The position numbers were made by a program, and so were the translations under genes. Below, in pieces: positions 13,610 to 48,041 of a stretch of DNA of 64,000 nt (its first letter is position 1; each line of letters opens with the position of its first letter). Location of the stretch: positions 124,001-188,000 of the forward strand of contig NZ_LFME01000001.1 of the NCBI RefSeq assembly GCF_001043115.1. The letters run 5' to 3'. This DNA is from Xanthomonas sp. NCPPB 1128. Lineage in GTDB: Bacteria; Pseudomonadota; Gammaproteobacteria; Xanthomonadales; Xanthomonadaceae. A model generated the notes under the pieces. The model was not told where the DNA came from and did not search any database. It saw only the letters and a program-made list of their open reading frames with translations.

Positions 13610-13769
13610 CAGGCGACTCCTTCGATGCGGTGCCTGTGCGCGACGAACGCGGCGCACAGGCGGAGGGAAGGGCTGCCTGGGCGCGTGCCTGGGTGGCGAG
13701 GAAATGAGTGGGTCCGCCGCCGTTGCGGCGGCGGACGCTGTGCAAGCTAGGCGTTGTACGAGGGGGCGG

Positions 13770-14165: not shown

Positions 14166-14402
14166 CGGGGTTCTCTTCTGCGGGTGGATGGAGTGGGGAA
14201 TTGGGTGGGTGGGTGGGCGCAACGCGCGCGATGACGCCGGTTGTGCGTCGTGTCGTCGCGTTGACCTTTGGCGATGTCGGAGGCACCGTATGCGCGGCCT
14301 GGCGATGTGGCCTGCAGCAGGTGTTGGCTGTGCCGCCAGGCGTGTGAGGCAAAAGCCGAGGTCTTTGCCGGTCTCGATCCTGCAGTCGACAAGGAGCGTG
14401 TG

Positions 14403-14870: not shown

Positions 14871-14879
14871 GCCTGCGCG

Positions 14880-33430: not shown

Positions 33431-34123
33431 TTGCGCGCCCAATGGAACATCCTTTGCGATTTTGACGGTACCGTTTCCCTGCAGGACGTGACCGACAGCC
33501 TGCTCGAGCACCTCGGGCGTCCCGGTTGGCAGGAACTGGAAGACGACTGGGTCGCTGGTCGGATCGGGGCCCGCGAGTGCATGAGCAAGCAGGTGGCGCT
33601 GCTCGACGGCGACGTCGATGCGTTGCACCGGGTGCTCGATGCGGTGCGGATCGATCCGGCCTTCGTGCGCTTCGTGGCGCTGGCCGAGCGCCTGGGCATC
33701 CCGCTGAGCATCGTCAGCGACGGCCTCGACTACGGCATCGCCCGGATCCTGGCCCGCCACGGCCTGCACCATCTGCCGATCATCGCCAACCGCCTGCTGC
33801 GTACCGACGCGGGCGAATGGCGCATGGCCTCGCCGCATGCGCGGCCGGACTGCCCCAGCGGCACCTGCAAGTGCGCGGTGATGGCGCAACAGCCGCCCGA
33901 GCGCGCCACCTTGCTGATCGGCGACGGCCGCTCCGATTTCTGCCTGGCCGGCAAGGCCGACCTGGTGTTCGCCAAGGACGGGCTGCTGCGCCATTGCCGC
34001 GCCAACGGGATCGCCCATTGCGCGATCACCGGTTTCGACGACGCCATCGCCCTGCTGCCCGACCTGGCCACGCCGGCGACCGCCCCCGTGTCCTTCCCGC
34101 TTCCTGTCACCCAACGAGCCTGA
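33431..34123 (+). CDS. HAD-IB phosphatase, MtnX-like
   Basis: The 230-residue protein has HAD motif I ILCDFDGTVSLQDVTDSLL, motif II in PLSIVSDGLDYG and motif IV LLIGDGRSDFCLAGKADLVF. Fold and length fit MtnX/phosphoserine-phosphatase-like enzymes, so it should dephosphorylate a small cytoplasmic metabolite; no methionine-salvage genes are nearby. No ATG or GTG is in frame before motif I; TTG at 33431 with GGAGAG five bases upstream is the best start. The aminotransferase gene follows after five bases, so both act in one pathway, perhaps a serine-like phosphorylated precursor. Confidence 0.85.
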   Translation: MRAQWNILCDFDGTVSLQDVTDSLLEHLGRPGWQELEDDWVAGRIGARECMSKQVALLDGDVDALHRVLDAVRIDPAFVRFVALAERLGIPLSIVSDGLDYGIARILARHGLHHLPIIANRLLRTDAGEWRMASPHARPDCPSGTCKCAVMAQQPPERATLLIGDGRSDFCLAGKADLVFAKDGLLRHCRANGIAHCAITGFDDAIALLPDLATPATAPVSFPLPVTQRA

Positions 34124-34128
34124 TCCCG

Positions 34129-35601
34129 ATGAACCGGAATGTCCCGCTTTCCTCGCTCGCACCGCTGCATGGCGATGCCGCGCCCGATCCGGAGGCGCTG
34201 CTGCGCACCGGCGCCGACCACCAGCGCGCGCTGAGCGATGCGCAGATGCTGGCCGACGAGTCCCAATACTGCTCCTACGGCGACACCGTGCACTACAGCG
34301 AGCCGCCGCGCATCTTCGGCCGCTGCGACGGCAGCTACCTGTACGACACCGAGGAAGTGCCGTACCTGGACCTGCAGATGTGGTACTCGGCGGTCAACTT
34401 CGGCTACGCCAATCCGCGCCTGAACCAGGCGCTGACCCGCCAGATCGAGACGCTGCCGCAGGTCGCCAGCCAGTACCTGCACCCGACCAAGATCGAACTG
34501 GCCAAGACCATCGCGGTCGACGCCGAGCGCAAGTGGGGCCGCAAGGGCCGCGTGCACTTCAACGTCGGCGGCGCGCAGTCGGTGGAAGACTCGCTGAAGC
34601 TGGTGCGCAACGCCAGCGCCGGCAAGAGCCTGGTGTTCGCCTTCGAAGGCGGCTACCACGGCCGTACCCTCGGTGCCTCGGCGATCACCTCGTCGTACCG
34701 CTACCGCCGTCGCTTCGGTCATTTCGACCGCGCCCAGTTCATCGAATTCCCGTACCACTTCCGCGGCCCTAAGGGCATGTCCAAGGAAGAGTACGGCGAG
34801 CAGTGCGTGGCCAAGTTCGAGCGCCTGTTCGAGACCGAGTACAACGGCGTGTGGGATCCCAAGGCCGGGCAGTGCGAATACGCGGCGTTCTACGTCGAGC
34901 CGATCCAGGGCACCGGCGGCTACGTGATCCCGCCGCCGAACTTCTTCACCGGCCTGAAGCGGGTGCTGGACAAGTACGGCATCCTGATGGTGGTCGACGA
35001 GATCCAGATGGGCTTCTTCCGCACCGGCAAGCTGTGGGCGATCGAGCATTTCGGCGTGACCCCGGACGTGCTGGTGTTCGGCAAGGCGCTGACCAACGGC
35101 CTGAACCCGCTGGCCGGCATCTGGGCGCGCGAGGAGCTGATCAACCCGACCGTGTTCCCGCCGGGTTCGACCCACTCCACCTTCGCCTCCAACCCGCTGG
35201 GCACCGCGGTCGGACTGGAGACCATGCGCATGCTGGCCGAGACCGACTACGAGTCGATGGTGATGGCCAAGGGCGCGCACTTCCTCGACGGCCTGCGCGA
35301 CCTGCAGAAGCGTCACCCGGAAATCGGCGACGTCGACGGTCTGGGCCTGGCCCTGCGCGCGGAGATCTGCCAGGCGGACGGCTTCACGCCGAACCGCAAG
35401 CTGCTCGACACCATGGTCGACATGGGCCTGGAAGGCGAGCTGCGCCACAACGGCAAGCGCATCGGCCTGATCCTGGACGTGGGCGGTTACTACAAGAACG
35501 TGATCACGCTGGCGCCGTCGCTGCACATCAGCCACGAAGAGATCGACCTTGGCCTGTCCTTGCTGGACCAGTTGCTGACCCGCGCCAAGCAGGTCGCATG
35601 A
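34129..35601 (+). CDS. Class III PLP aminotransferase
   Basis: The 490-residue enzyme has the class III fold: FNVGGAQSVEDSLKLVRNAS, FEGGYHGRTLGASAITSSY, YVEPIQGTGGYVIPPPNFF, MVVDEIQMGFFRTGKLW and the Schiff-base lysine in LVFGKALTNGLNPLAG (Lys319). Such enzymes move amino groups to or from omega-amines, ornithine, lysine, diaminobutyrate or amino-alcohol/aldehyde substrates; the exact one is not readable. It is second in the HAD-aminotransferase operon and is convergent with the ketosynthase gene. Confidence 0.93.
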   Translation: MNRNVPLSSLAPLHGDAAPDPEALLRTGADHQRALSDAQMLADESQYCSYGDTVHYSEPPRIFGRCDGSYLYDTEEVPYLDLQMWYSAVNFGYANPRLNQALTRQIETLPQVASQYLHPTKIELAKTIAVDAERKWGRKGRVHFNVGGAQSVEDSLKLVRNASAGKSLVFAFEGGYHGRTLGASAITSSYRYRRRFGHFDRAQFIEFPYHFRGPKGMSKEEYGEQCVAKFERLFETEYNGVWDPKAGQCEYAAFYVEPIQGTGGYVIPPPNFFTGLKRVLDKYGILMVVDEIQMGFFRTGKLWAIEHFGVTPDVLVFGKALTNGLNPLAGIWAREELINPTVFPPGSTHSTFASNPLGTAVGLETMRMLAETDYESMVMAKGAHFLDGLRDLQKRHPEIGDVDGLGLALRAEICQADGFTPNRKLLDTMVDMGLEGELRHNGKRIGLILDVGGYYKNVITLAPSLHISHEEIDLGLSLLDQLLTRAKQVA

Positions 35602-35605
35602 GCCG

Positions 35606-35644
35606 GGCGGGAGACGACGCGCGCATATCGCGTTGCCTCCCGCC
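35606..35644. terminator. Hairpin between convergent operons
   Basis: A 16-bp stem with two mismatches (GGCGGGAGACGACGCG / CGCGTTGCCTCCCGCC) is followed on the plus strand by GTTGTTT. It probably ends the aminotransferase and the ketosynthase transcripts. Confidence 0.6.
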
Positions 35645-35666
35645 GTTGTTTGCGGCGGCGGGCGCT

Positions 35667-36905
35667 TCAGCCCGCCGCGCGCAGCGCGATCACCGCATTG
35701 AGTCCGCCGAAGGCGAAGGAATTGCTCAGCACCGCCTGCACGTGGCGGGCGCGCGCCTGGTTGGGCACGTAGTCCAGATCGCATTCCGGATCGGCATCGA
35801 GGAAATTGGCCGTGGGCGGGACCACCTGCTCGCGCAGCGCGCCGATCGCCGCCACCAGTTCCAACGCGCCGGCCGCGCCGAGCGCATGGCCGTGCACCGC
35901 CTTGGTCGAACTGACCGCCAACGCCTCGGCGTGCGCGCCGAACACCTGCCGCAGCGCCTGGGTTTCGCAGCGGTCGTTGGCCTGGGTGCCGGTGCCGTGG
36001 GCGTTGATGTAGTCGATCTGTTCCGGCGCCAGGCCGGCGTCCTGCAGCGCCAGGCGCATCGCCGTGGCGGCGCCGTCGATGCTCGGCGCGACGATGTCGC
36101 CGGCATCGGAGCTCATGCCGAATCCCGCCAGTTCCGCCAGCGGCCGCGCGCCGCGGGCGGCGGCGTGCTCGGCGCTTTCCAACACGAACATCCCCGCGCC
36201 TTCGCCCAGCACCAGACCGCTGCGCTGCGCGCAGAACGGCCGGCAGGTGTCGTCGCTGACCACCCGCATCGCTTCCCAGGCGCGGACCAGCGCCAGGCTC
36301 AGGCAGGCTTCGCTGCCGCCGGCGATGGCCACGTCGGCCAGGCCATGGCGGACCATCAGCGCGGCCTGGGCGAACGCGTGGTTGGCCGAGGCGCAGGCGC
36401 TGGACACGGCGAAGGCCGGGCCGCGCAGGCCGAAGGCGATGCTGATCTGGCTGGCCGGGGCATTGGCCATGCTGCGCACGATGGTCAGCGGATGCAGGCG
36501 CTCTGCCTGGTCGCGGTACAGCCGGCGCGATTGTTCGTCGCGGCTGAGTTCGGCGCCGACGCCGGTGCCGACCACCACCGCGCAGCGCGCGCCGAGCGCG
36601 GCATCGCCGTGCGGCAGGCCGGACTGGGCGATCGCCTCGCGGGCGGCGACCAGGGCCATCTGGGTCATGCGATCGAGCTGGCCGGGGGCGATGCCGCCTG
36701 TCTGCGTGGCGTCCGGGGCGAACCCTTGCAGGGTCGCGGCCACGCGCATCTTCAGGGTGCTGAGCGGATCGGGCGAGGGCAGGGCGGCGATGCCGCTGCG
36801 GCCCTCGCGCATCGCGCTCCACAGCGCCTCGGCGCCGAGGCCGAGCGCGCTGACCGCGCCCATGCCGGTGACGACGACGCGCCGCGCGTGCGGAGAGGCG
36901 CCCAT
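35667..36905 (-). CDS. Beta-ketoacyl-ACP synthase (FabF-like)
   Basis: The 412-residue condensing enzyme has the KAS II triad: Cys171 in VSSACASANHA, His303 in NAHGTGT and His340 in KAVHGHALGAAGALE. It would elongate an acyl chain on an ACP with malonyl-ACP in the cytoplasm. It is not the housekeeping FabF context (no fabG, fabD or acpP here) and no chain-length-factor partner is present. It follows its own ACP gene by six bases, as in nodFE-type loci, so a specialised acyl product is inferred. Confidence 0.93.
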   Translation of the reverse strand: MGASPHARRVVVTGMGAVSALGLGAEALWSAMREGRSGIAALPSPDPLSTLKMRVAATLQGFAPDATQTGGIAPGQLDRMTQMALVAAREAIAQSGLPHGDAALGARCAVVVGTGVGAELSRDEQSRRLYRDQAERLHPLTIVRSMANAPASQISIAFGLRGPAFAVSSACASANHAFAQAALMVRHGLADVAIAGGSEACLSLALVRAWEAMRVVSDDTCRPFCAQRSGLVLGEGAGMFVLESAEHAAARGARPLAELAGFGMSSDAGDIVAPSIDGAATAMRLALQDAGLAPEQIDYINAHGTGTQANDRCETQALRQVFGAHAEALAVSSTKAVHGHALGAAGALELVAAIGALREQVVPPTANFLDADPECDLDYVPNQARARHVQAVLSNSFAFGGLNAVIALRAAG

Positions 36906-36911
36906 GGTGCG

Positions 36912-37187
36912 TCAGTGCGCCGGTTGCGCCGCGCTGGCCGCCGCCTTGGCCGCCAGCGCGTCCTCGACCGCCTGCACCAGCTTGCCGAGCGAGCCGTCGT
37001 CCAGGTTCGGGTCGCGCTGCGGGAAGGTGATGTCGAAATGCTCTTCGATGTCGAACAGGATTTCGATGGCCTCGAGCGAATCCACGCCCAGGTCCTGCAG
37101 CTTGGCATCGGGGGTCAGGCGTGCCGGGTCGATCTCGCCATGCTTGGCGACGATGCTGTGGATTTGCGACTCGATGGACGGGGTCAT
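36912..37187 (-). CDS. Dedicated acyl carrier protein
   Basis: The 91-residue ACP has the phosphopantetheine attachment motif LGVDSLEAIEILFDIEEHFD with Ser37. It has a longer Ala-rich tail (KAAASAAQPAH) than housekeeping AcpP. GGAG lies seven bases before the ATG; a longer in-frame extension upstream has no ribosome site. It should carry the chain made by the adjoining ketosynthase. The 112-base gap to the divergent GNAT gene is the control region of both. Confidence 0.93.
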   Translation of the reverse strand: MTPSIESQIHSIVAKHGEIDPARLTPDAKLQDLGVDSLEAIEILFDIEEHFDITFPQRDPNLDDGSLGKLVQAVEDALAAKAAASAAQPAH

Positions 37188-37299
37188 GGCAGTGCTCCGC
37201 GAAATGAAGGGCCACCGTGCGGCACCCGCCGCCGGTGGATCGCACGCTGCGGCCTGGGCCGCAGCATCCATTCTCCACGCTAGACGATCAATCTTGCAG
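37188..37299. promoter_or_regulatory. Divergent control region ACP / GNAT
   Basis: The 112 bases lie between the ACP gene and the GNAT-arginase operon and must contain two opposite promoters. CGATCAATCTTGCAGA lies just before the GNAT start; no certain -10/-35 pair was fixed. Confidence 0.5.
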
Positions 37300-38367
37300 A
37301 TGCCTTTCGTCAACCAACTCGAGCCTCAGGCCTTGCAGCGGCAGTTCCTGCAGCACCCGCCCGCCGGTTTCCTGATCCAGCCCCTGGAGCACGGGGTGCC
37401 GGCCTTCGAGGCCGATTTCGACCTGCTCACCACGGCCGAGCCGGCGCTGCGCGCGAAGGTCGCGCGGCTGCCGCTGCAGCGCCTGTGGCAGCGCTTGCTG
37501 CGGCCGCGCACCAGTTTCGTCGGCAGTACCGTCAGCGAATACGCCTGGCTGCCGCGCGCGGCCGACCCGGCGCAGTTGCCGCGGCAGTGGCGCGCGCAAC
37601 TGGGCCGGCGCCGCGCGCTGATGATCGTCAAGGACGTGCCGCAGCGCTCGCCGCTGCTCGATGACACCGACAACGCCTGGGCGCAGGCGTTCCTGGACGC
37701 CTGCGAGCGCAATGGCTACGTCCTGTTGCGCGGGCAGGCGCTGGCCTGGGTGCCGATCGATTTCGCCTCCACCGACGAATACCTGGCGCGGCTCTCGCGC
37801 GGGCGCCGCCGCAACATCCGCCGCAAGCTGCGCTCGCGCGCCAACCTGGAGATCGAGGTGCTGCCGACCGGCCCGGCCTTCGCCGATGCGGCGCTGCGCG
37901 CGCACTGCTATGCGCTGTACCAGGAGGTGTATGCGCAGAGCGAGATCCATTTCGACCTGCTCACCGCGCCGTTCTTCGATGCGCTGCTGACCGACGCCGA
38001 CTCGAACGGGCAGGTGTTCGTGTACCGGCACCAGGGCCGCATCATCGGCTGGAACCTGTGCTACGTGCACGAAGGCCGGCTGCTCGACAAGTACATCGGC
38101 TTGCATTACCCGGATGCGCGCGACCACAACCTGTACGCGCTGAGCTGGATCGAGAACCTCGATTACGCCTGCCGCCACGGCCTGACCGCCTACGTCGCCG
38201 GCTGGACCGATCCGGAAGTGAAGGCCCAGCTCGGCGCCAGCTTCACCTACACCTGGCATGCGGTGTACCTGCGCAATCCACTGCTGCGCGCCGTGCTGCG
38301 CCGATTGCGGTCGCTGTTCGAATCCGACGACGTCGGGCCGGCGGCCGATGCCGCCGAGGAGGACTGA
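37300..38367 (+). CDS. GNAT/FemAB-fold N-acyltransferase
   Basis: The 355-residue protein has a basic motif YLARLSRGRRRNIRRKLRSR followed by a GNAT core (HCYALYQEVYAQSEIHFDLL, GQVFVYRHQGRIIGWNLCYV, LLDKYIGLHYPDARDHNLYA). The basic motif is like that of the COG3146 (peptidogalycan-type, FemAB-related) acyltransferases. It has no signal peptide or membrane helix. Next to a dedicated ACP it may use an acyl-ACP donor and transfer the acyl group to an amine; that is inference. The arginase-like gene starts one base after its stop. Confidence 0.85.
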   Translation: MPFVNQLEPQALQRQFLQHPPAGFLIQPLEHGVPAFEADFDLLTTAEPALRAKVARLPLQRLWQRLLRPRTSFVGSTVSEYAWLPRAADPAQLPRQWRAQLGRRRALMIVKDVPQRSPLLDDTDNAWAQAFLDACERNGYVLLRGQALAWVPIDFASTDEYLARLSRGRRRNIRRKLRSRANLEIEVLPTGPAFADAALRAHCYALYQEVYAQSEIHFDLLTAPFFDALLTDADSNGQVFVYRHQGRIIGWNLCYVHEGRLLDKYIGLHYPDARDHNLYALSWIENLDYACRHGLTAYVAGWTDPEVKAQLGASFTYTWHAVYLRNPLLRAVLRRLRSLFESDDVGPAADAAEED

Positions 38368-38368
38368 G

Positions 38369-39247
38369 ATGCGCACCCCGGTCCTGCTCGATCTCGATGA
38401 TTCGCTGGGCGCAGTGCCCGACGCCGTGCGCCTGCCGTTGCGCAAGTGGTGCGATGGCCTGCGCTTCGCCTGCTCGATGGCGCGGCTGCGCCGTTTCGGC
38501 GCGGCGCTGGAGCAGGCGCTGCCGGCGCAGTACGGCACCGTGCTGCTGGGCAGCGGCGATTTCCATCACCTGAGCCTGCCGCTGATCGTGCGCCTGGCAC
38601 AGCGCGCGCAGGCGCCGTTGCGGGTGGTGGTGTTCGACAACCACCCGGACAACATGCGCTTCCCGTTCGGGGTGCATTGCGGCTCGTGGGTGCGACGCGT
38701 CGCCGCGCTGCCGCAGGTGGCGCAGGTCGAGGTGGCCGGCATCACCTCCGGCGACGTCGGCCCCGGCCATGCCTGGGAAAACCATCTGCTGCCGCTGTAC
38801 CGCGGCAAGCTGCGCTACTGGTGCAGCGGCGTGGACGTGGGCTGGGCGCGGCGGCTGGGCCTGGGCCAGGCGGTGCGCGGCTTCGACAGCGTGAGCACGC
38901 TGAGCGATGCCTTCGTCGAGCACCTGCGGCGCACGCCGATGCCGACCTATCTGTCGCTGGACAAGGACGTGCTGGATCCGCAGGACGTGCGCACCAACTG
39001 GGACCAGGGCCACCTGCGCGTGCCGCAGTTGCTGCAGGCGATCGAGGCGCTGCGCGGCCAGGTGTGCGGCAGCGACATCACCGGCGAAGTCTCGCTGGCA
39101 CATTACCCGCAGTGGTGGAAGCGCAAGCTGGCGGCGCTGGATGCGCAACCCGAGCCGTCGCCGGCGGATCTGTCGGCGTGGCAGGCGCAGCAGCACGCGT
39201 TGAACCTGCGGCTGCTGGCGGCGCTGGACGCGGCCACTGTGGATTGA
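38369..39247 (+). CDS. Arginase/ureohydrolase-fold protein
   Basis: The 292-residue protein keeps the three metal motifs of the arginase fold in variant form: LLGSGDFHHLSL (residues 60-71; GGDHS in arginase), VVVFDNHPDNMRF (89-98; DAHxD) and YLSLDKDVLDP (194-204; DxDxxDP). All likely Mn ligands are present, so it should hydrolyse a C-N bond of a guanidino, amidino or amide compound, or be a deacetylase-like relative. The residues that bind arginine are not recognised, so the substrate is open. It is the second gene of the GNAT operon. Confidence 0.85.
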   Translation: MRTPVLLDLDDSLGAVPDAVRLPLRKWCDGLRFACSMARLRRFGAALEQALPAQYGTVLLGSGDFHHLSLPLIVRLAQRAQAPLRVVVFDNHPDNMRFPFGVHCGSWVRRVAALPQVAQVEVAGITSGDVGPGHAWENHLLPLYRGKLRYWCSGVDVGWARRLGLGQAVRGFDSVSTLSDAFVEHLRRTPMPTYLSLDKDVLDPQDVRTNWDQGHLRVPQLLQAIEALRGQVCGSDITGEVSLAHYPQWWKRKLAALDAQPEPSPADLSAWQAQQHALNLRLLAALDAATVD

Positions 39248-39352
39248 TCTGGCCGATGCCAAGGCAGCGCCTCGCAGGCGCTGCCGCAGCGACGAGCGCC
39301 GGGATGCCTGCGTCGCGCGGTTCGCTTGCGCGGGCGACGGCAGTGCAGGTTG

Positions 39353-39426
39353 TCCCGCAGGAGCGGCTTTAGCCGCGACGGGCATTACCGGTAACGCCCG
39401 TCGCGGCTAAAGCCGCTCCTACGGGA
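39353..39426. repeat. Long REP-like inverted repeat
   Basis: Two 37-base arms pair at 35 of 37 positions with no loop; the core is GGAGCGGCTTTAGCCGCGAC and its complement GTCGCGGCTAAAGCCGCTCC. Copies of this GGAGCGGCTT(T/C)AGCCGCGAC type are widespread between genes in Xanthomonadaceae. It sits between two convergent operons of the biosynthetic locus and may end both transcripts. Confidence 0.85.
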
Positions 39427-39488
39427 TGCTTCCGTCGTGATCAGCGGCGCGCTTTCCGCGCGACGCGATGCTCGCAAATGGTGCCCTG

Positions 39489-40742
39489 TCAGACGCTCGG
39501 CGCAGCGGCGTGCACCAGGTCGAGGTCCAGCGGCGCAGGCCCGACCGCGGCGGCGCAGGCCGCCTGCAGCGTGGCCACGATGGTCTCGAAGCGCGCCTCG
39601 TCCAGCCACGGACTGTTGCTGATGCTCAGGCAGCGCGCGGCGAAGTCGCTGGCGTTGGGCATCGGCGTGCGCTCGACGATGCCGTCCAGGTAATCGTAGC
39701 CGGGCAGGGCATGCACGAACGGCACCGCCACGCCGAGTCCGCGCGGCCACAGCGTCGCCAGCACCGATTCGCGCGCAGCCGCGTCGGGCAGCAGCACCAT
39801 CAGGATCGGCCAACTGCCCTGGGCACCGGGCGTATCGGCGATCACGGTCAGGCCGGGGATGCTGGCCAGGCGCGCGCTGCGGCGCCGGCCCTGCTCGCGG
39901 ATCTGGGCAAGAAATGCCGGCCAGCGCGCGCTGGCGCGCACGCCGACGCCTTCGCGCCAGGCGCCGACCGCGTGCTGGGCGATGGCCGTGCCGAAGCGGT
40001 CGCCGGCCGCGCCCACGCGGTCGCCGCGGCGCAGTGCGCGGCGGACCGGCGCGCCATACGCCCAGCGCAGCGGCTGCGGCCGATACAGCGCGGCGTAGCC
40101 GAGCAGCTCCAGGCTGCGGCGCAGTTCCCAGCGCCAGTCGCGCTGGCCCAGGCGCGCGGCGGTGTCGGCCAGGCTGCGCTGCAGCGGCGCGTGCCGCGAC
40201 ATCAGCAGGCCGCCTTCGTAGAGGGTCAGGCCCTTGCCGGCGGCCAGGCTGCAGAAGCCGATGTCGCCGCCCAGGCCGGCCGGGCGGCCGTCGGGGTGCA
40301 CGCCGCCCAGCGCCTGTGCGGCGTCCTCGATCAGCAGCGCGCCGCAGCCTTCGGCGGCGCGGCGCAGCGGCGCCAGGTCGATCAGACGCCCGCCGAGATG
40401 GGTGGCGATGATCGCCAGGGTGTCGCTGCCGCAGCGTTGCGCCAGCTGCACCGGGTCCAGTTCCAGCGAGCCGGGCAGCAGATCGCACAGCACCAGTTGC
40501 AGGCCGCAGTGCGCCACCGCCAGTGCCACCAGCGGGCAGGTGTAGGCCGACACCAGCACCTGCCGGCGCCGGTTGGCCGCGGTCAGGGTGCGCAGGGCCA
40601 CGATCAGCGCCGCGGTGCCGGAGCAGGTCAGCAGTGCCTGCGGCAGGCCGACCGCGCTGGCCAGGCGGGTGCGCGCGCGGCCGGGCCACAGGTCGCGCCA
40701 CTGCAACGGCAGGCCGGCGGTCGGCGGAATCTCAATGCGCAT
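39489..40742 (-). CDS. DegT/DnrJ/EryC1/StrS-family aminotransferase
   Basis: The 417-residue PLP enzyme has ALLTCSGTAALIVALRTLT, VLVSAYTCPLVALAVAH, ATHLGGRLIDLAPLRRAAEG, LLIEDAAQALGG and the PLP lysine in FCSLAAGKGLTLYEGG (Lys170). The family aminates keto-sugars bound to nucleotides, or related cyclitols; ArnB is a member. It is the last gene of the hydrolase - SMR - SMR - DegT operon and overlaps the preceding transporter gene by 11 bases. Confidence 0.92.
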   Translation of the reverse strand: MRIEIPPTAGLPLQWRDLWPGRARTRLASAVGLPQALLTCSGTAALIVALRTLTAANRRRQVLVSAYTCPLVALAVAHCGLQLVLCDLLPGSLELDPVQLAQRCGSDTLAIIATHLGGRLIDLAPLRRAAEGCGALLIEDAAQALGGVHPDGRPAGLGGDIGFCSLAAGKGLTLYEGGLLMSRHAPLQRSLADTAARLGQRDWRWELRRSLELLGYAALYRPQPLRWAYGAPVRRALRRGDRVGAAGDRFGTAIAQHAVGAWREGVGVRASARWPAFLAQIREQGRRRSARLASIPGLTVIADTPGAQGSWPILMVLLPDAAARESVLATLWPRGLGVAVPFVHALPGYDYLDGIVERTPMPNASDFAARCLSISNSPWLDEARFETIVATLQAACAAAVGPAPLDLDLVHAAAPSV

Positions 40743-41130
40743 CGGCGGGATCCGCGCGTTCGCCCATCGCCAGGCAGACGATGCCGCCGACGATCAGCGC
40801 CGCGCCCAGCGCCTGCAGGACGCCGATGTGTTCGTTGAACCACCAGGCCGACAGCAGCATCACGCTGACCACCTCCAGGTGCGAGGCAGCAAAGGCCGGG
40901 CCGATCGGGGCGTGCTCGAGCAACTTCATCCAGGTGAAGAACGCACCGATGTAGCCGAGCAGCGCGGCGTACAGCCACGGGCTGCCGAGCAGGCGCAGCA
41001 CCCAGGCCAGTTCGGCCTGCGGCGGGAAGGCGTGGGTGCCGGCCAGCTTGAAGCCGATCTGCGCCAGGGTGTCGAAGCTCAGCAGCAGGGCAAAGCCCAC
41101 CGCGTAGCGATGCAGCGGCGGCCGGCTCAC
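40732..41130 (-). CDS. EmrE/ArnF-like small transporter subunit 2
   Basis: The 132-residue, four-helix membrane protein starts with GTG at 41130 inside the stop of the upstream subunit gene (GTGA). It has LLLSFDTLAQIGFKLAG in helix 1, LYAALLGYIGAFFTWMKLLE in helix 2, FAASHLEVVSVMLLSAWWFN and IGVLQALGAALIVGGIVCLA. The helix-1 Asp20 is spaced eight residues before Lys28, as Glu14 and Lys22 in EmrE. With its partner it should form an antiparallel heterodimer, as ArnE/ArnF do for undecaprenyl-phosphate-Ara4N. Confidence 0.85.
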   Translation of the reverse strand: MSRPPLHRYAVGFALLLSFDTLAQIGFKLAGTHAFPPQAELAWVLRLLGSPWLYAALLGYIGAFFTWMKLLEHAPIGPAFAASHLEVVSVMLLSAWWFNEHIGVLQALGAALIVGGIVCLAMGERADPADAH

Positions 41131-41489
41131 GAGCCCAACCCCACCACGGCCACGCCGGCGCTGACCAGGCAGATGCCGGCCACCTGCATGCGCCCGAGGC
41201 GTTCGCCGAACAGCCAGCGCCCGGCCAGCATGATCGCCACGATGTTGATCGAACCCAACAGCACGCCGCGGCCCAGCGGCACCAGCGACAGGAACGCGGT
41301 CCAGGCGAGGAATTCGAACACGTAGCAGGCCACGCCGGCCCACAAGTACGGCTGCCGGGCCATGTTCTGCCAGCGCGCCATGCCCGTGCCCTGCGGGCGG
41401 CTGGCGACGTACTTGAAGGCCAACTGGCCGGCGGTGTCCAGCGCCACCGTCGCCAGCCAGATTCCGACCACCGTGCCGCTCATCGCCAT
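41127..41489 (-). CDS. EmrE/ArnE-like small transporter subunit 1
   Basis: The 120-residue four-helix protein has helix 1 WLATVALDTAGQLAFKYVAS with Asp18 eight residues before Lys26, then LWAGVACYVFEFLAWTAFLS, GVLLGSINIVAIMLAGRWLF and VAGICLVSAGVAVVGLGS. It is paralogous to the next gene. Small multidrug-resistance-type pairs export cations, guanidinium or polyamines, or flip lipid-linked sugars. Start and stop codons interlock with the hydrolase upstream (TGATG) and the partner downstream (GTGA). Confidence 0.85.
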   Translation of the reverse strand: MAMSGTVVGIWLATVALDTAGQLAFKYVASRPQGTGMARWQNMARQPYLWAGVACYVFEFLAWTAFLSLVPLGRGVLLGSINIVAIMLAGRWLFGERLGRMQVAGICLVSAGVAVVGLGS

Positions 41490-42316
41490 CAGGCAGCCGC
41501 CTGCTGCGGGGGGGCGAGGGCGGCGAAGAACTGCGCCAGGCGCGCGCCGAGCACGCGCCGTTCGCGGTCCAGGGTGATCATGTGGTAGCTGTCGTGCAGC
41601 AGCAGCAGTTCCGTCGGCCCGGAGACGTTGGCGATCACCAGCCGCGCGTTGCTCAGGTCGGCGATGTCGTCCTCGGCCGCGTGCGCGACCAGGCACGGCG
41701 CGACCACCTTGGGCAGGTTGCGGCGCACGTCGCGCGAGAGCAGGTACATCTCGGCCAGCGCATGCCACGGATTGCCGGGCAGGCCGGCGGCGCTGCTGTC
41801 GCCACCGAGCATGGCGCTGCTGACCTGGGCGCGGATGCGCTCGTCGCGCAGGCCGTACGGCGGCTCTTCCAGGAACATGCGGCGCTTGCCGATGCCCAGG
41901 CGCTTGAACCACGGCAGCAGGAACGCCAGGCGTGCGCGCTTGGGGATGTTCCAGCCGTCGTAGCGGAAGGTGGCGCCGAGCACGCCGACCCCGTCCACCC
42001 ACTGCGGACGCTCCTGCGCCAGGCGCAGCGCCAGCAGCGCGCCCATCGACAGCCCGGCCACGAACAGCCGGTCGACCTGCGGGCGCATGCGCTCGGCGGC
42101 GGCCTCGACGCTGGCGTACCAGTCGCGCCAGCTGGTGGCCAGCAGGTCGTCCTCGTCGCCGCAGTGGCCGGCCAGCTGCACGCCGTGCACGCTGAAGCCT
42201 TCCCGGTTCAGACTCTTGCCGAGCAGGCGCATCTCGCTGGGCGTGCCGGTCAGGCCATGGATCAGCAGCACGCCGTTGCGGCCGCCTTCGAAGTGGAACT
42301 CGGCAGATTGGATCAT
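41489..42316 (-). CDS. Alpha/beta hydrolase, Est30/monoglyceride-lipase-like
   Basis: The 275-residue cytoplasmic serine hydrolase has GVLLIHGLTGTPSEMRLLGK, the nucleophile elbow VAGLSMGALLAL (Ser90), an acid in AHAAEDDIAD (Asp216 or 217) and the base His245 in LHDSYHMITLD. This layout is that of Geobacillus Est30 carboxylesterase. It would cleave or transfer medium-chain acyl esters. First gene of a four-gene operon; the 92 bases upstream separate it from the efflux operon on the same strand, so read-through is possible. Confidence 0.92.
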   Translation of the reverse strand: MIQSAEFHFEGGRNGVLLIHGLTGTPSEMRLLGKSLNREGFSVHGVQLAGHCGDEDDLLATSWRDWYASVEAAAERMRPQVDRLFVAGLSMGALLALRLAQERPQWVDGVGVLGATFRYDGWNIPKRARLAFLLPWFKRLGIGKRRMFLEEPPYGLRDERIRAQVSSAMLGGDSSAAGLPGNPWHALAEMYLLSRDVRRNLPKVVAPCLVAHAAEDDIADLSNARLVIANVSGPTELLLLHDSYHMITLDRERRVLGARLAQFFAALAPPQQAAA

Positions 42317-42408
42317 CGGAATGGGCGCGGCTGCGCAGTCTAGGTCATCCGTGCAGGGTCGCCGCCGCGCGTTTCAGCAGCCTTTCGCCGCGGTGGCGGC
42401 GTGCAGGC

Positions 42409-43308
42409 TCAGCGCTTGGCCGCGGCCGGGTTGCGGAAGCGTACCAGCACGCGCTGGCCCAGGCGCAGGGTGGAGGGCTGGGTGAAGGCCAGCACGCAGG
42501 CCACGCTGCGGTCGTTGCCGGCGGGCGTGGCGTCGTCGTGCAGCTGGGTGGGGCCGTAGGCCGGCGCCAGCCAGCGCACCACCGCCTCGCCGAGCACGGT
42601 CTGGCGGCCATCGTCGCTGATGACCTCGGCGGCCATGCCCGGGGTCACGCTGCCGGCATAGCTTTCGTTCAATTCGACGCGGACCAGGCGCGGCGCGTCC
42701 GGCAGCAGGGTCAGCAGCGGCGCGTTGGCCTCGCTGCGCGCGCCGACCGCGGCCGACAGCTGCAGCACGCGCCCGGCCACCGGCGCCTGCAGCCGGTATT
42801 GCGCGCGCTGCAACTCGGCCGCGCGCACCTGCGCCTCGGCCAGGGCCGCATCGCTGCGCGCGGTGTCCAGCGCGTCGACCAGGCCCTGCACCGCGTCGCT
42901 GGCGTCGTCGGCGCTCTGCCCGTCGCCGGCGCCCAAGCGTGCGGCCTCGGCCAGCCGCCGTTGCTTCTGCTGGGCGCTTTGCAGGCGTTGCTGCAGTTGT
43001 TTCAGGTGGGTGGTCGCGGCCTGCGCGCGGGTGCGGGCGATGTCCAGGTCGACCGCGGCGGCGCGGTCGTCGCCGGCGATCAGCAAGGCGCCTTTTTGCA
43101 CCGCGTCGCCCTCGTGCACCGGCACCTCGCGCAGGGTCGCGGCGACCGGCAGGCCGAGCTTGAGCACGCCGCCTTCCACATCGATGCGGCCGCGCGCCAC
43201 CGCCAGGTAGGCCGGGGTGGCGGCCGGCGCCGGGGCCGGCGTGCGGTCCGAGGGCGCGCATGCGGCCAGCAGCAGGCTCAGCAGGGGCGCGGCGGCGAAC
43301 GCTTTCAT
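42409..43308 (-). CDS. HlyD/RND-type periplasmic adaptor lipoprotein
   Basis: The 299-residue protein has a lipoprotein signal (FAAAPLLSLLLAACAPSDRT), a split lipoyl domain (LREVPVHEGDAVQKGALLIA and QYRLQAPVAGRVLQLSAAVG), an alpha-hairpin coiled coil (TTHLKQLQQRLQSAQQKQRR) and a beta-barrel (RLVRVELNESYAGSVTPGMA). It bridges the inner-membrane ABC permease to the TolC-like channel encoded upstream. Its start overlaps the ATPase stop (ATGA). It ends the six-gene efflux operon. Confidence 0.9.
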   Translation of the reverse strand: MKAFAAAPLLSLLLAACAPSDRTPAPAPAATPAYLAVARGRIDVEGGVLKLGLPVAATLREVPVHEGDAVQKGALLIAGDDRAAAVDLDIARTRAQAATTHLKQLQQRLQSAQQKQRRLAEAARLGAGDGQSADDASDAVQGLVDALDTARSDAALAEAQVRAAELQRAQYRLQAPVAGRVLQLSAAVGARSEANAPLLTLLPDAPRLVRVELNESYAGSVTPGMAAEVISDDGRQTVLGEAVVRWLAPAYGPTQLHDDATPAGNDRSVACVLAFTQPSTLRLGQRVLVRFRNPAAAKR

Positions 43309-44069
43309 GGTGCGGGATTCCGTGAGGGCAGGGGCGAGGGCGGCGCATTCACGCGGCGGTCGTCGAGGATGCGGCCGTCCTCCATCGACAGCACGCGGTC
43401 GGCGTGGCGGATCAGGCGCGGGTCGTGACTCACGCACAGCACCATGGTGTTGTGGCGGCGCGCGATGCGGTGCAGCAGGTCGATCACGATCTGGCCGTTG
43501 CCGGCGTCCAGCGCGCTGGTCGGTTCGTCGGCGAACAGCAGCGCCGGGTGCTTGGCCAGCGCGCGGGCGATCGCCACGCGCTGCTTCTCGCCGCCGGACA
43601 GTTCGGCCGGGCGCAGGTGCTGGCGGTGGGCGATGCCGACTTCGGCCAGCGCCTCTTCGGCACGGCTGCGCACCTCGGCCGGCGCCAGGCCCATGTACTG
43701 CAGCGGCAGCCGCACCTGGTCCAGCGCGCACAGCGCCGGGAACAGGTTGAAACCCTGGAAGATGAAGCCGGTGTGGCGCAGGCGGAACTGTTCCAGCGCG
43801 GTGGCGCCGAGCGCGCCCAGCTCCTCGCCCAGCGCCAGTACCTGGCCGGCGTCGGCACGCTGCAGGCCGCTGAGGATCGACAGCAGCGTGCTCTTGCCGC
43901 AGCCGGACGGGCCCGAGATCAGGGTCAGTTCGCCCGGCCACACCTGCAGTTCCACGTCGCGCAGCACCGGCGTGCGCAGGCTGCCGGAGACGAAGCTCTT
44001 GCACAGCCCGCTGCCGCAGAGGGTGGCGGCGGCCGGGTGCAGCGCGGCGGGGGCGACGATCCGGCTCAT
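43305..44069 (-). CDS. ABC transporter ATP-binding protein (MacB/LolD type)
   Basis: The 254-residue ATPase has Walker A GPSGCGKST, the Q loop FIFQGFNLFPALCALDQV, signature LSGGEKQRVAIARAL, Walker B ALLFADEPTSALD and the H loop CVSHD. It belongs to the LolD/MacB/FtsE group, which works mechanically with FtsX-like permeases. Stop and start overlap both neighbours by four bases. Confidence 0.96.
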   Translation of the reverse strand: MSRIVAPAALHPAAATLCGSGLCKSFVSGSLRTPVLRDVELQVWPGELTLISGPSGCGKSTLLSILSGLQRADAGQVLALGEELGALGATALEQFRLRHTGFIFQGFNLFPALCALDQVRLPLQYMGLAPAEVRSRAEEALAEVGIAHRQHLRPAELSGGEKQRVAIARALAKHPALLFADEPTSALDAGNGQIVIDLLHRIARRHNTMVLCVSHDPRLIRHADRVLSMEDGRILDDRRVNAPPSPLPSRNPAP

Positions 44070-45199
44070 CGCAGCAGCAACGCCGGATCGGCGCGGCGCA
44101 GCCCGCGCAGCGCGGCCAGCGCCGAGACCACGGTCAGCAGCATCACCGCGCACACGCACAGGCCCCAGCCGCTGGCGTTGAACGCCACCGGCACGTCGTG
44201 CGCGCGGGCCAGCGCGACCAGCGCCGCGCCCAGCGCGCTGGCGCCGATCAGGCCCAGCGCGCCGACCCACGCGGCCTGTTCCAGCACCACCCAGCGCAGA
44301 TTGCGCATGCTCACGCCCAGCGCGTTGAGCGTGGCGTACTCGCGCGCCGCACCGAGCACGGTGCCGAGCAAGGTCTGGCTGGTGATGGCCACGCCGACCA
44401 GCAGCACGATGCCGCCGAGGAACAGCACGCCGGAGCCGGCGCCGGTGTCGAACATCCAGAACAGGATGCTGCGCCGGGCGAAATCGTCCGCGCTCCAGGC
44501 TTCCACGCGCGGCCGCGCGACCGCGCCGTCGATCGCCTGCGCCACCGCCTGCGGGTCGGTGCCGGGACGCAGCCTGGCCACCATGTAGGTCGGCCAGTCC
44601 GGGTGTGCGGTATCGCTGTTGAGCGCGCGCGCGGTGTCCAGCGAGGCCAGCACGTTGACCCCGCCCAGCGCGCGCAGGCCGCGGCCGACCCCGATCACCC
44701 GCACGCGGTGGCCATTGATGCGCGCGCTGCTGCCGACGCCGACGCCGAGCTTGTCCAGTTCCGCGCGGTCCACCACCACGGTGTCCGGTTCGCGCAGTGC
44801 CGCGCGCAGGGCCGGGCTGAGCAGACGGGAGAACATCAGCCCGCCGTCGCGGGTGTCGATGCCGGAGATGTAGACCGACACCGCGCCGGTGTCGCCGGGG
44901 CCGCGCCAGTCGCCGTCGAACCAGAGGAACGGCTCGACCTGCGCCACCCGCGGGTCCAGGTACAGCGGCGCGGCCGCGTCCGGATCGATGGCGCGGCCCT
45001 GGTCCACGCTCTGCGTGCCGGGATAGCCCAGCCACAGGTCGGCGTCGGAGCCGGACACGTAGACGCTGGCGCTGCCGAAGATGCCCAGCACCAGCGCGGT
45101 CTGCAGCAGCAGCAACAGGCTGGCGAAGCCCACCGATACCACCACCGGCAGGAAGCGTCGCCACTCGTAGCGCAGGGTCTGGCGGGCCAGCGCGACCAT
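44066..45199 (-). CDS. FtsX-like ABC permease
   Basis: The 377-residue inner-membrane protein has one N-terminal helix (FLPVVVSVGFASLLLLLQTA), a large periplasmic MacB-type domain (SDADLWLGYPGTQSVDQGRA, VYISGIDTRDGGLMFSRLLS) and three C-terminal helices (VLFLGGIVLLVGVAITSQTL, AAWVGALGLIGASALGAALV, LCVCAVMLLTVVSALAAL). It is the partner of the ATPase. The ATG shares one base with the stop of the outer-membrane channel gene. Confidence 0.93.
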   Translation of the reverse strand: MVALARQTLRYEWRRFLPVVVSVGFASLLLLLQTALVLGIFGSASVYVSGSDADLWLGYPGTQSVDQGRAIDPDAAAPLYLDPRVAQVEPFLWFDGDWRGPGDTGAVSVYISGIDTRDGGLMFSRLLSPALRAALREPDTVVVDRAELDKLGVGVGSSARINGHRVRVIGVGRGLRALGGVNVLASLDTARALNSDTAHPDWPTYMVARLRPGTDPQAVAQAIDGAVARPRVEAWSADDFARRSILFWMFDTGAGSGVLFLGGIVLLVGVAITSQTLLGTVLGAAREYATLNALGVSMRNLRWVVLEQAAWVGALGLIGASALGAALVALARAHDVPVAFNASGWGLCVCAVMLLTVVSALAALRGLRRADPALLLR

Positions 45200-46623
45200 C
45201 AGGGTTGCGCGCCTTGGTGTTCGGTGCCGGTGTCGGGAATCGGCGCGGTGGCGCTGCCCAGTGCGGTGTGCAGGGCGACGTAGGCCAGGTCGCGCTGGCG
45301 CTGCGCTTCCAGCAGTTCCAGGGCGGCCTGGTCGCGCGCGGCCTGCTGCGTGGCCACGTCCAGGTCGCTGCCCAAGCCCAGCCGCCGGCGCTGCTGCGCG
45401 ACGTCGCTGGCCTGCTGTTGTGCCTGCAGCACTTGCTGCTGGGTCTCGACGTTGCGCCGCTGCTGTTCCAGTGCGGTCAGGGCGTCCTCGACCTCGTTGA
45501 CCGCCGCCAGCACGGTCTGCCGGTAGGCCAGGGTCGCCGCTTCCAGCAGATCGCCGCGCGCCTTGGCCTTGGCATGGCGGATGCCCCAGTCGAACAGCGG
45601 GATGTCGATCACCGGGCCGAACGAGGCGATGCCGTGGGTGGCGGTGCGGCGGTGGCTCAGCAGGGTGGTGGACCAACGGATCGAACCGCCCAGGCCGATG
45701 CTGCCGTACTGATCGGCGCGGGCCAGGTCCAGCGCGCCGGCGGCGCTCAGCACCTCGGCCTCGCGCGTGGCGATGTCCGGGCGCCGGCGCAGCAGATCGG
45801 CCGGGACGCTGTCGACCGCCGCGATCTGCAGCGTCGTCGGCGCGGCGCTGGCCGCGGCCGCGCTCCACGCCGGGTCGGGCGCGCTGCGGCCCAGTAGCAG
45901 GGCCAGGCGCCGCGCGGCCGCGGCGGCGGCCTCGCGTGGTTCGTTCATGGCGCTTTGCGCCTGCAGCGCGGCGGCTTGCGCCTGCGTCGCGGAGGCCGGG
46001 GTGGCTAGGTGCAGGTCGACCAGCGCCGCCTGCAGGGTCGCCTGGCGCTGGCGTGCGGCGACCACGTCCTGCTGTAGCCGCTCGGCCTGCTGCGCGTGGC
46101 GCAGGTCGATCCAGTTGCGGGTCACCTCGGCGATGGTCGCCGCGCGCACCTGCGCCAGGTCGGCCTGGGCGTTGTCCAGATCGCCGCGCGCCATGCGCCG
46201 GGTCGCCTCGCCGCGGCCGAACAGCGGCAGCTCCCATTCCGAGTCGAGCCCGACCACCAAGAACGAGGCGCTGGCGTCGGGGTCGATCGGGTCGAGGGTG
46301 CGCGCGCGCAACTGCGGGCGCTGCGAGGCGCCGGCCACCGCATCCAGGCGTCGCGCCGCCCGCAGCTTGGCCAGTGCCTGGCCGACGTTGAGGTCCTCGC
46401 GCAGCGCCTGCGCGACCAGCGCGTCGAGCTGCGGATCATGGAAGTCCTGCCACCAGGCCGTGCCGGGCGGGCGGGCGACCGCGGCCTGCGGCGTCGGGCT
46501 GCTCCAGTGCGCCGGCAACGATTGCTGCGGCAGGTCGGGCATCGGCGTGCTGGCGCAGCCGGCCAGCGCGCACGCGGCGGCCAGCGCCAGCAGGCTGGCC
46601 GGGCGAAAGCGGACGCGGGTCAT
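45199..46623 (-). CDS. Outer-membrane efflux lipoprotein (NodT/TolC family)
   Basis: The 474-residue protein has a lipoprotein signal (LLALAAACALAGCASTPMPD), WWQDFHDPQLDALVAQALRE typical of the NodT branch, long coiled helices (LAQVRAATIAEVTRNWIDLR) and the repeat half VPADLLRRRPDIATREAEVL. It forms the outer-membrane exit duct for the ABC-HlyD pump downstream. The gene overlaps the kinase stop by four bases. Confidence 0.93.
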   Translation of the reverse strand: MTRVRFRPASLLALAAACALAGCASTPMPDLPQQSLPAHWSSPTPQAAVARPPGTAWWQDFHDPQLDALVAQALREDLNVGQALAKLRAARRLDAVAGASQRPQLRARTLDPIDPDASASFLVVGLDSEWELPLFGRGEATRRMARGDLDNAQADLAQVRAATIAEVTRNWIDLRHAQQAERLQQDVVAARQRQATLQAALVDLHLATPASATQAQAAALQAQSAMNEPREAAAAAARRLALLLGRSAPDPAWSAAAASAAPTTLQIAAVDSVPADLLRRRPDIATREAEVLSAAGALDLARADQYGSIGLGGSIRWSTTLLSHRRTATHGIASFGPVIDIPLFDWGIRHAKAKARGDLLEAATLAYRQTVLAAVNEVEDALTALEQQRRNVETQQQVLQAQQQASDVAQQRRRLGLGSDLDVATQQAARDQAALELLEAQRQRDLAYVALHTALGSATAPIPDTGTEHQGAQP

Positions 46624-48041
46624 GCCTGCGGCTCCGCGCCGGCCGGCAGGTCCAGTTCCGCGCGCAAGCCGCCCAGCGCCGAACGCCGGTAGCGCAGCGT
46701 GGCGTGGTGGCGCGCGGCGATGTTGGCGACGATCGCCAGGCCCAGGCCGGTGCCGCCCTCGGGCGCGTCCGGGGCACGGAAGAAGCGCTCTCCCAGGCGC
46801 GGCAGCAGGGCCTCGTCGATGCCGTTGCCGGCGTCGTCCACGGCCAGGCGCACGGCCTGCGGATCGCGCCGCAGGCTGACCGTGACCACGCGGCCGGCGG
46901 CATGGCGGAAGGCGTTGTCCAGCAGGTTGTCGAGCAGTTCGCGCAGCGCATAGGTGTCGGCGGCCACCCAGGCGGGCGCGTCGTCGTCGCCGGCGTCGTA
47001 GCCCAGGTCCACGCCGGCGTGCAGCGCATCGGGGATGCGGTCGGACAGGGCCTGCGGCAGCCATTGCGCCAGGTCCAGCGGCAGCAGCTCGCGGATGCTC
47101 TCGCGCGGCGCCTGGGTACGGGTCAGCGCCAGCAGCTGGGTGGAGGTGCGGGTGGCGCGGTCGGTCAACTGGCGGATGTGCTGCAGTGCCTGCGCGGTGT
47201 CCTCCGGGCGCTGGCTGGCCTGGGCGCGTTGCACGTGCATGCTCAGCCCGGCCAGCGGCGTGCGCAGCTGGTGCGCGGCGTCGGCGAGGAAGCGCTCCTG
47301 CAGCGCCATCATGTGCTTGAGGCGGCCGAGCAGGCCGTCGATGGCCTGGGTCAGCGGCAGGATCTCCACCGGGATGTCCGGGCCAGACACCGGGCTGAGG
47401 TCGCGCTGGCTGTCGTCGAGCCGGCGCACCGCCGGCTCCAGCATGCGCAGGCCGACCCGCACGCCGTGCCAGACCAGCACCAGCAGGGAACAGGTGAGCA
47501 GCAGTTCGGTCGGCAGCATCAGCACCAGGATCTCGCGGGCGCGGCGATGGCGGTCGTCCAGGGTCTCGGCCACCGACACGGTGAGCCAGTCGCCCGGCTC
47601 CAGCGCCGAGGGCAGCAACAGGCTGGCCACGCGCACCGGCACGCCGTTGTCCATGTGGTCGTCGTACAGCATCACCCGGCCGATCTCGGCTGGATCCGGA
47701 TGCGCGGGAATCGGCTGGGTGCTGCCGCTGATCACCCCGTGGCGGCGGCTGTCCAGCTTGAAGAACACCCGGCCGTCGCTGCTGTATTCCAGCAGTTGCC
47801 GCGCCTGCAGGGTCAGCGGCATGCGCTCGCCAGGGTCGTTGACCGCGTTGGCCAGGCCCTGGGTGTCCTCCTTCAGGTCCATGTCGTGGACGTGATTGGT
47901 GTACTTGAGCATCAACAGGTAGAACAGCGCCGACACCACCAGCATCAGCAGCATGGTCGGAATCAGCAGGAACGCCAGCAGTCGCTGGCGCAGGCTGGGA
48001 TGGCGGTATGCCGGCGACTGCGCGGCCGCGGTCGCGCTCAC
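46620..48041 (-). CDS. Sensor histidine kinase
   Basis: The 473-residue inner-membrane kinase has two membrane helices (LLAFLLIPTMLLMLVVSALF and VLMLPTELLLTCSLLVLVWH) around a periplasmic sensor of about 130 residues, a HAMP-like linker, the H box DAAHQLRTPLAGLSMHVQ, N box LRELLDNLLDNAFRHA, and G boxes VDDAGNGID and GGTGLGLAIVANI. GTG at 48041 overlaps the regulator stop (GTGA). A longer in-frame extension upstream lies inside the regulator gene and is rejected. It resembles the TctE/QseC type. Confidence 0.94.
   Translation of the reverse strand: MSATAAAQSPAYRHPSLRQRLLAFLLIPTMLLMLVVSALFYLLMLKYTNHVHDMDLKEDTQGLANAVNDPGERMPLTLQARQLLEYSSDGRVFFKLDSRRHGVISGSTQPIPAHPDPAEIGRVMLYDDHMDNGVPVRVASLLLPSALEPGDWLTVSVAETLDDRHRRAREILVLMLPTELLLTCSLLVLVWHGVRVGLRMLEPAVRRLDDSQRDLSPVSGPDIPVEILPLTQAIDGLLGRLKHMMALQERFLADAAHQLRTPLAGLSMHVQRAQASQRPEDTAQALQHIRQLTDRATRTSTQLLALTRTQAPRESIRELLPLDLAQWLPQALSDRIPDALHAGVDLGYDAGDDDAPAWVAADTYALRELLDNLLDNAFRHAAGRVVTVSLRRDPQAVRLAVDDAGNGIDEALLPRLGERFFRAPDAPEGGTGLGLAIVANIAARHHATLRYRRSALGGLRAELDLPAGAEPQA

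Follow-up and report, generated by a model that had tools for sequence, protein, structure and literature searches.

What ten closely packed genes of familiar folds make together, and whether they belong together at all, is the question raised by positions 33431–42316 of a stretch of DNA from Xanthomonas sp. NCPPB 1128. The stretch, called the window here, spans 64,000 nucleotides (positions 124001–188000 of the source contig), and all positions are given in window coordinates. The original prediction had described these genes, with their order, directions and tight spacing, as a locus that makes an amine headgroup, attaches an acyl chain to it and flips or exports the product; coordinates and gaps confirmed the layout, and Pfam confirmed the family names. 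Judged by their distribution, the ten genes are a real unit, to which an exporter and a two-component system probably also belong. We give about an even chance to the reading that this is a two-component-regulated cluster for the biosynthesis and export of an acylated amine, that is, an amino-lipid. Its known folds, of the kinds used in lipid-type biosynthesis and export, apparently form a set that matches no described pathway we could find; in agreement with what had been claimed, no paper on this gene set was among those listed from the open-licence PubMed Central literature.

Protein families were assigned by Pfam and NCBIfam profile searches, with the NCBIfam scores compared to curated cut-offs. 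The ten genes, under the names used throughout, are as follows.

HAD, 33431..34123, plus strand: HAD-IB phosphatase, MtnX-like; core (PF12710, E 4e-15)
AT3, 34129..35601, plus strand: class III pyridoxal phosphate aminotransferase fold; core (PF00202, E 4e-76)
KAS, 35667..36905, minus strand: beta-ketoacyl-ACP synthase of the FabF subfamily; accessory (PRK07314 subfamily, 414.5 bits, cut-off 387)
ACP, 36912..37187, minus strand: dedicated acyl carrier protein; accessory (PF00550, E 1e-10)
FEM, 37300..38367, plus strand: FemAB-like/GNAT-fold N-acyltransferase; core (PF04339, E 2.4e-14; PF13480, E 2e-11)
ARG, 38369..39247, plus strand: arginase-fold hydrolase; core (PF00491, E 5e-9)
DEGT, 39489..40742, minus strand: DegT/DnrJ/EryC1 aminotransferase; accessory (PF01041, E 7e-36)
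SMR2, 40732..41130, minus strand: small EamA/SMR protein; core (PF00892, E 7e-10)
SMR1, 41127..41489, minus strand: small EamA/SMR protein; core (PF00892, E 7e-7)
ABH, 41489..42316, minus strand: alpha/beta hydrolase; core (PF12146, E 2e-21)

Co-occurrence and extent of the unit

Co-occurrence was followed in a sample of the order comprising 200 genomes from 69 genera, the window's own genome included, with ortholog cut-offs of E ≤ 1e-150 for AT3 and E ≤ 1e-120 for KAS. ARG was found in 38 of these genomes, AT3 in 40 and KAS in 32. Both ARG and AT3 were present in 37 of the 41 genomes having either gene, ARG alone in one, AT3 alone in three and neither in 159, which corresponds to a Fisher p of 1.3e-35 by genome and 1.4e-12 over the 69 genera when shared ancestry is ignored. 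All KAS orthologs belonged to genomes with ARG or AT3; eight genomes had ARG without KAS and two KAS without ARG. ARG is carried by 19 of the 20 genomes examined from the genus of the window, and within another genus of its family (g3) four genomes carry both ARG and AT3, with six others listed carrying neither. Independent movement of the operons, which the original prediction named as evidence against a unit, is seen in part: in five genomes of the order AT3 has lost its linkage to ARG, lying at a distance of 153 kb in G039 and 1.59 Mb in G125 and on a different contig in G046, G085 and G189, yet it is retained in all five. It is because ARG, AT3 and KAS co-occur in genomes, even where AT3 lies far off, that we regard the ten genes as a unit.

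The same data bear on the possibility that unrelated operons became neighbours by chance. The unlinked AT3 genes, together with the loss of DegT or of KAS and ACP in some genomes, speak for such a coincidence, but the genome-level co-occurrence (p near 1e-35 when genomes are counted and near 1e-12 when genera are, uncorrected for phylogeny) and a single gene run on alphaproteobacterial plasmids already largely refute it, and we consider it highly improbable. The claim that the genes act as a set gains from their recurrence in distant genera, which exceeds chance, and from their co-occurrence and shared location across Pseudomonadota.

Neighbourhoods were read in two collections: the surroundings of ARG, at most 20 kb, in the other 37 ARG-positive genomes of the order, and a set of 80 named loci retained after a contig scan in which at least 545 relatives were confirmed among the 590 pattern matches listed. 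Eight queries (AT3, KAS, the exporter and the two-component genes) were counted with identity thresholds of their own. ARG, by which every locus was chosen, registers in 36/37 and 78/80 in this count, as its match was dropped wherever it overlapped that of FEM. FEM is present in every locus of both collections (37/37 and 80/80), the gap between the two genes falling between −60 and +200 bases in 79 of the 80 named loci, and this tight pairing suggests that the two enzymes act on the same intermediate. HAD occurs within the stretch in 29/37 and 48/80 loci, AT3 in 29/37 and 55/80, and all ten genes in 16/37 and 32/80 (29 of the 65 named loci with full flanks). From one family to another the gene blocks change their order and orientation, though they usually remain together.

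At least three of four transporter genes accompany the set in 16/37 and 39/80 loci, and a histidine kinase matches at E ≤ 1e-20 in 19/37 and 27/80. By this measure of conservation, the unit is larger than ten genes. The boundary originally drawn at 42316 leaves out a co-conserved exporter and its neighbouring two-component system (42409–48745), six genes downstream of ABH, each of which overlaps the next by a few bases.

Adaptor, 42409..43308, minus strand: periplasmic, HlyD type, part of the exporter (PF13437, E 4e-11)
ABC ATPase, 43305..44069, minus strand: best named family DevA, with LolD close (TIGR02982, 219.3 bits, cut-off 295.8)
Permease, 44066..45199, minus strand: FtsX/MacB_PCD, sole named match DevC (PF02687, PF12704; TIGR01185, 63.4 bits, cut-off 290.35)
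Outer-membrane factor, 45199..46623, minus strand: NodT type (TIGR01845, 224.6 bits, over the cut-off of 210.05)
Sensor histidine kinase, 46620..48041, minus strand: 2CSK_N sensor domain, GTG start proposed (PF08521, PF00512, PF02518)
Response regulator, 48038..48745, minus strand: OmpR type (PF00072, PF00486)

Among the eight genomes outside the class that have AT3 without ARG, seven show a HAD-AT3-ABH run, which includes ACP-KAS in L221, L222 and L224 and a KAS reaching the contig end in L227; AT3 is the only gene recognised in the eighth, L219. This AT3 homolog (L219:9412-11732), 55% identical, has a four-base overlap with a sulfotransferase gene. Neither HAD nor ARG was recognised in its vicinity, and next to it is a SIR2-NACHT-like frame at 11749–15156. 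Identity falls to 30–32% for ARG but stays at 71–76% for AT3 in G493, G516 and G550, from another family, and in G403 and G406, from another class. Genome G445 carries a window-type FEM-ARG-SMR-SMR locus (L183, contig C22) as well as HAD-AT3-ABH with a distant FEM (L225, contig C52).

The nearest named record found is that of Xanthomonas sacchari R1, whose genes follow the same order and whose AT3 is 99.6% identical; the host probably belongs to this species or a close one. This record (L240, NZ_CP010410.1), 508,653 bases long, is labelled a plasmid, possibly in error for a part of the chromosome. The window's HAD begins with TTG and has the same length as in the R1 annotation, where the gene is called MtnX-like; it also scores over the cut-off of DKMTPPase-SF in NCBIfam (96.7 versus 81.55 bits). 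The intra-operon gaps of the ten-gene set are +5, +6, +1, −11, −4 and −1 bases, and the G+C content of the locus is 70.7% compared with 70.4% for the window. A further feature sits where the ARG and DegT genes converge, in the space between them, with two matches against 0.04 expected.

Inverted repeat, 39363..39416, strand not applicable: two perfect 21-base arms, terminator-like or like a repetitive extragenic palindrome (REP)

Plasmid-borne versions and the shared core

We surveyed 72,556 plasmid records with cut-offs of E ≤ 1e-10 for ARG, E ≤ 1e-6 for FEM and E ≤ 1e-80 for AT3. ARG and FEM were each found in 47 records, with identical genus tallies (the two sets were compared by tally), and AT3 in 34, of which 17 are typed conjugative. 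Thirteen annotated regions, two of them from one strain, were chosen for reading. Eight, on plasmids of Rhizobium, Agrobacterium, Sinorhizobium and Phyllobacterium, contain the genes as a single run of HAD, AT3, ARG, EamA/SMR, ABH, FEM and EamA/SMR; the remaining five come from Bartonella, Roseomonas (two regions), Aureimonas and X. sacchari. DegT was not found in the eight Rhizobium/Agrobacterium-type regions, and both Roseomonas regions keep it. The exporter is attached in three of the four Agrobacterium regions. Rhizobium acidisoli FH23 possesses two copies of the cluster (L237 and L242) on two plasmids typed conjugative, both with a desaturase and a cyclopropane synthase.

A sensor kinase and a response regulator of the OmpR or sigma-54 type lie within or beside 11 of the 13 regions. 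No such pair is present in the Bartonella region, and the stretch read from X. sacchari does not extend that far; the two-component pairs of the loci L185 and L188 are of the sigma-54 type. Beside the AT3-FEM-ARG genes of the Bartonella plasmid there is an AlgX-like SGNH gene together with an MBOAT O-acyltransferase gene (L238:12437-14959). As read from these regions, the most widely shared core is HAD, AT3, ARG, SMR, ABH, FEM and SMR, and KAS/ACP and DegT are best described as accessories; these vary by lineage, as do desaturase and cyclopropane synthase.

Enzymes of the core and candidate genes for the chain and headgroup

The catalytic residues had been reported as intact, and those expected are indeed present: D10, D12, S96, K147, D165 and D169 in HAD, C171, H303 and H340 in KAS, S37 in ACP, K170 in DegT, S90, D216 or D217, and H245 in ABH, H66, D90, H92, D94, D198 and D200 in ARG, and K319 in AT3. 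Ordinary chemistry does not follow from their presence. AT3, the best conserved gene of the set, has Thr262 and Thr460 in the places of GabT E211 and R398 in all 95 aligned rows, some of which are the same locus fetched twice; Lys456, Arg179 and His349 are also invariant. In GabT these two residues form the Glu/Arg gateway pair that handles the carboxylate of glutamate. Membership in the gamma-aminobutyrate (GABA)/ornithine-type class III aminotransferases was rejected by the absence of this pair, and there is no ground for assuming that AT3 shares its donor and substrate with GABA or ornithine transaminases. Lack of the pair is by itself not unusual, since only two of seven other class III enzymes of the same genome (L228 and L235) have it. 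That the substrate of AT3 is phosphorylated is a fair guess, no more, prompted by the HAD phosphatase gene that is usually close by.

ARG belongs to the arginase/ureohydrolase superfamily by its PF00491 score (36.4 bits over 22) and its pattern of bimetal ligands, roles that we assign to H66, D90, H92, D94, D198 and D200. These positions and the motifs GSGD[FY]HH, DNHPD and TNW[DE]QG recur in all 12 rows compared, one from the window and 11 from distant members, and TNW[DE]QG occupies the place of a different motif in arginases. Neither ARG nor FEM matched any NCBIfam family at E ≤ 0.001. A search of the sequences of solved structures returned only weak matches for ARG, all to arginases, and none for the FEM profile. 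KAS has the Cys-His-His triad and scores 427 bits against the fabF equivalog (cut-off 493.75) and 414.5 against PRK07314 (cut-off 387), and the best profile for DegT is PseC (92.2 bits, cut-off 423.5).

KAS and ACP are, on the genomes compared, optional: 18 of 22 genomes without KAS in the stretch have no ortholog genome-wide at E ≤ 1e-100. Other fatty-chain genes occur in some of these lineages. Four of the 13 plasmid regions (two from one strain) have a fatty-acid desaturase gene within the run and three (two from one strain) a cyclopropane-fatty-acid synthase gene, with each family checked on one example in these regions; of 39 representative loci, five (L114, L118, L123, L127 and L156; family checked in L118) have a CMAS-family gene as the next gene after ARG. 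Among the parts checked of other lineages lacking KAS and ACP, such as four g3 genomes, no desaturase, cyclopropane synthase or CMAS gene was found. We infer an acylated product because some KAS/ACP-less lineages carry a desaturase or cyclopropane-fatty-acid synthase there, which strengthens the acyl part of the original proposal. As for the headgroup, two Salinisphaera loci in which DegT was not found possess glycosyltransferase genes (GT9 in L117 and GT87 in L124), which hints that DegT decorates it. Serinol, an amino-alcohol, is one possible headgroup.

The candidate product and its alternatives

Given acyl-chain genes, a Dev-like pump and ArnE/F-like membrane proteins, a product that is acylated, flipped and exported is the simplest reading, and the predicted logic of an amine headgroup with an acyl chain fits it. 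In such a pathway AT3 would aminate a precursor, perhaps a phosphorylated one, from which HAD would strip the phosphate, and FEM would couple an acyl or aminoacyl group to the amine made by AT3. On an intermediate, hydrolysis of a C–N bond would fall to ARG and that of an ester to ABH; ACP and KAS, or a desaturase or cyclopropane synthase, would set the chain, and DegT would supply a second amine or an amino-sugar. The SMR pair would flip the lipid over the inner membrane, and the Dev-like pump with its outer-membrane channel would carry it outward.

A more specific version holds that the product is a new exported cationic lipid, FEM transferring arginine from an activated donor onto an aminated, acyl-bearing headgroup and ARG trimming this residue to ornithine with the release of urea. 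It would explain the FEM-ARG pairing, since ARG would act on the arginine attached by FEM; KAS/ACP, desaturase or cyclopropane synthase would tune the tail, and the sensor-controlled Dev-like pump would place the lipid in the outer envelope. We consider this version improbable.

The export part of the amino-lipid reading leans on the DevBCA-TolC system, the exporter of heterocyst glycolipids, which works with a ketosynthase/ACP-dependent glycolipid pathway. Similar to that system, the window encodes an adaptor, an FtsX/MacB-type permease, a separate ATPase and an outer-membrane channel, and its exporter is nearest to the DevA (best match) and DevC (only named match) families of NCBIfam. We know of no set of aminotransferase, FemAB-like and arginase-fold genes beside the pump of the DevBCA system. 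MacAB-TolC shares the MacB_PCD and FtsX domains of the permease; unlike there, the ATPase here is a separate gene, and it scores 177.1 bits against the MacB model (cut-off 966).

For acylation, the original model was NodF-NodE-NodA, which acylates rhizobial Nod factors. The locus resembles it in having an adjacent dedicated ACP and KAS (gap of 6 bases) and a separate acyltransferase, but does not belong to its family: at E ≤ 0.01 FEM matches only PF04339 (FemAB_like) and PF13480 (Acetyltransf_6) and no NodA family, and KAS and ACP are dispensable here. The second model, ArnB-ArnE/ArnF of aminoarabinose modification, shares with the locus a DegT enzyme beside two ArnE/F-like small membrane proteins and a sensor kinase near. 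As a family it likewise fails, with scores far under the cut-offs for DegT against ArnB (44.6 versus 631 bits), SMR2 against ArnE (21.0 versus 92) and ArnF (27.7 versus 99) and SMR1 against the same two (26.3 versus 92 and 26.7 versus 99), and with no family like ArnC, ArnT, ArnA or ArnD among the sixteen genes tested.

One alternative is that the locus modifies an existing envelope lipid, such as lipid A or a phospholipid headgroup, against cationic peptides or envelope damage, serving an Arn-like purpose with other enzymes. Besides the weak SMR matches to ArnE and ArnF and the membership of DegT in the family of ArnB, the sensor kinase and regulator genes in 11 of 13 plasmid regions, in the window and in L185 and L188 would suit this role. 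So would a MipA/OmpV gene found next to the run in five of the 13 plasmid regions: according to PMC10936184, MipA and MipB of Pseudomonas are proposed polymyxin co-sensors with ParR/ParS, and it is this proposal, together with the position of the gene, that brings envelope defence into view. Against it, no lipid A glycosyltransferase or deformylase occurs among the ten genes, the sixteen genes tested in the window include no MipA, and a change of headgroup needs no exporter with an outer-membrane channel. We judge it unlikely.

A soluble secreted amino compound, a signal or an antibiotic, would assign KAS and ACP to a short chain, ABH to release as a thioesterase, and the SMR and ABC pumps to export and protection. 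SMR proteins and tripartite pumps do export small molecules as well, and KAS is distantly similar to AmcF of cispentacin biosynthesis (233.8 bits, cut-off 325). ACP distantly resembles AmcB in the same way (21.9 bits, cut-off 80). The amc cluster itself was rejected as a match, since both scores fall below their cut-offs; the rest of its gene set also differs from this locus. For an antibiotic it would be unusual to be encoded in 19 of the genus's 20 genomes, and several lineages lack a dedicated KAS/ACP, some of them having other fatty-chain genes instead; on balance we regard a soluble product as unlikely. Xanthomonadin and aryl polyenes, whose clusters are defined by a KAS-CLF (chain-length factor) pair, a dehydratase and a ketoreductase, were rightly set aside by the original prediction, as the sixteen genes at 33431–48745 include one KAS and no CLF, dehydratase or ketoreductase.

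Several observations weigh against an amino-lipid. The product and the steps towards it are predicted from genes. The desaturase and cyclopropane synthase could serve ordinary phospholipids under the same sensor. The exporter matches fall under the cut-offs of DevA (219.3 of 295.8 bits) and DevC (63.4 of 290.35), and the ATPase matches LolD nearly as well as DevA (202.4 bits, cut-off 307.75). The set also varies: 9 of 25 AT3-positive genomes of the phylum sample lack ARG, eight of them in other classes; the Bartonella plasmid has AT3-FEM-ARG alone; and a GSAM-like class III enzyme replaces AT3 in both Roseomonas regions and in Aureimonas. Correlated divergence of the ten proteins favours the reading, their pairwise distances giving r 0.74–0.96 over 28 named loci in which all ten frames are intact (no control gene from outside the set was included), but shared species history alone could yield such values. 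Finally, the ABH frame of L220 and L226 runs on into a sequence similar to the N-terminal part of FEM from L185, itself a distant one (28% identity, E 3e-8, and 32%, E 5e-13, respectively); this fusion is weak support for the set, and the window-type FEM profile does not detect the extension.

If the amino-lipid reading is true, an unassigned species would be expected among the lipids of Rhodanobacter, Comamonas, Rhizobium and Xanthomonas, and the pairing with a sensor would link the cluster to envelope defence or host contact. The set is widespread, occurring in a plant-associated genus (19 of 20 genomes), in many other Gammaproteobacteria and on rhizobial and Agrobacterium plasmids.

Two further gene arrangements were observed. 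In Pigmentiphaga, ARG and DegT are separated by a pair of cyanophycin-synthase-like genes (L120:10821-15856). On the same contig as the window, and outside it (G000:C1:239223-253481), an open frame of 5409 amino acids with four ketosynthase-like stretches resembles a modular polyketide synthase or a hybrid megaenzyme.

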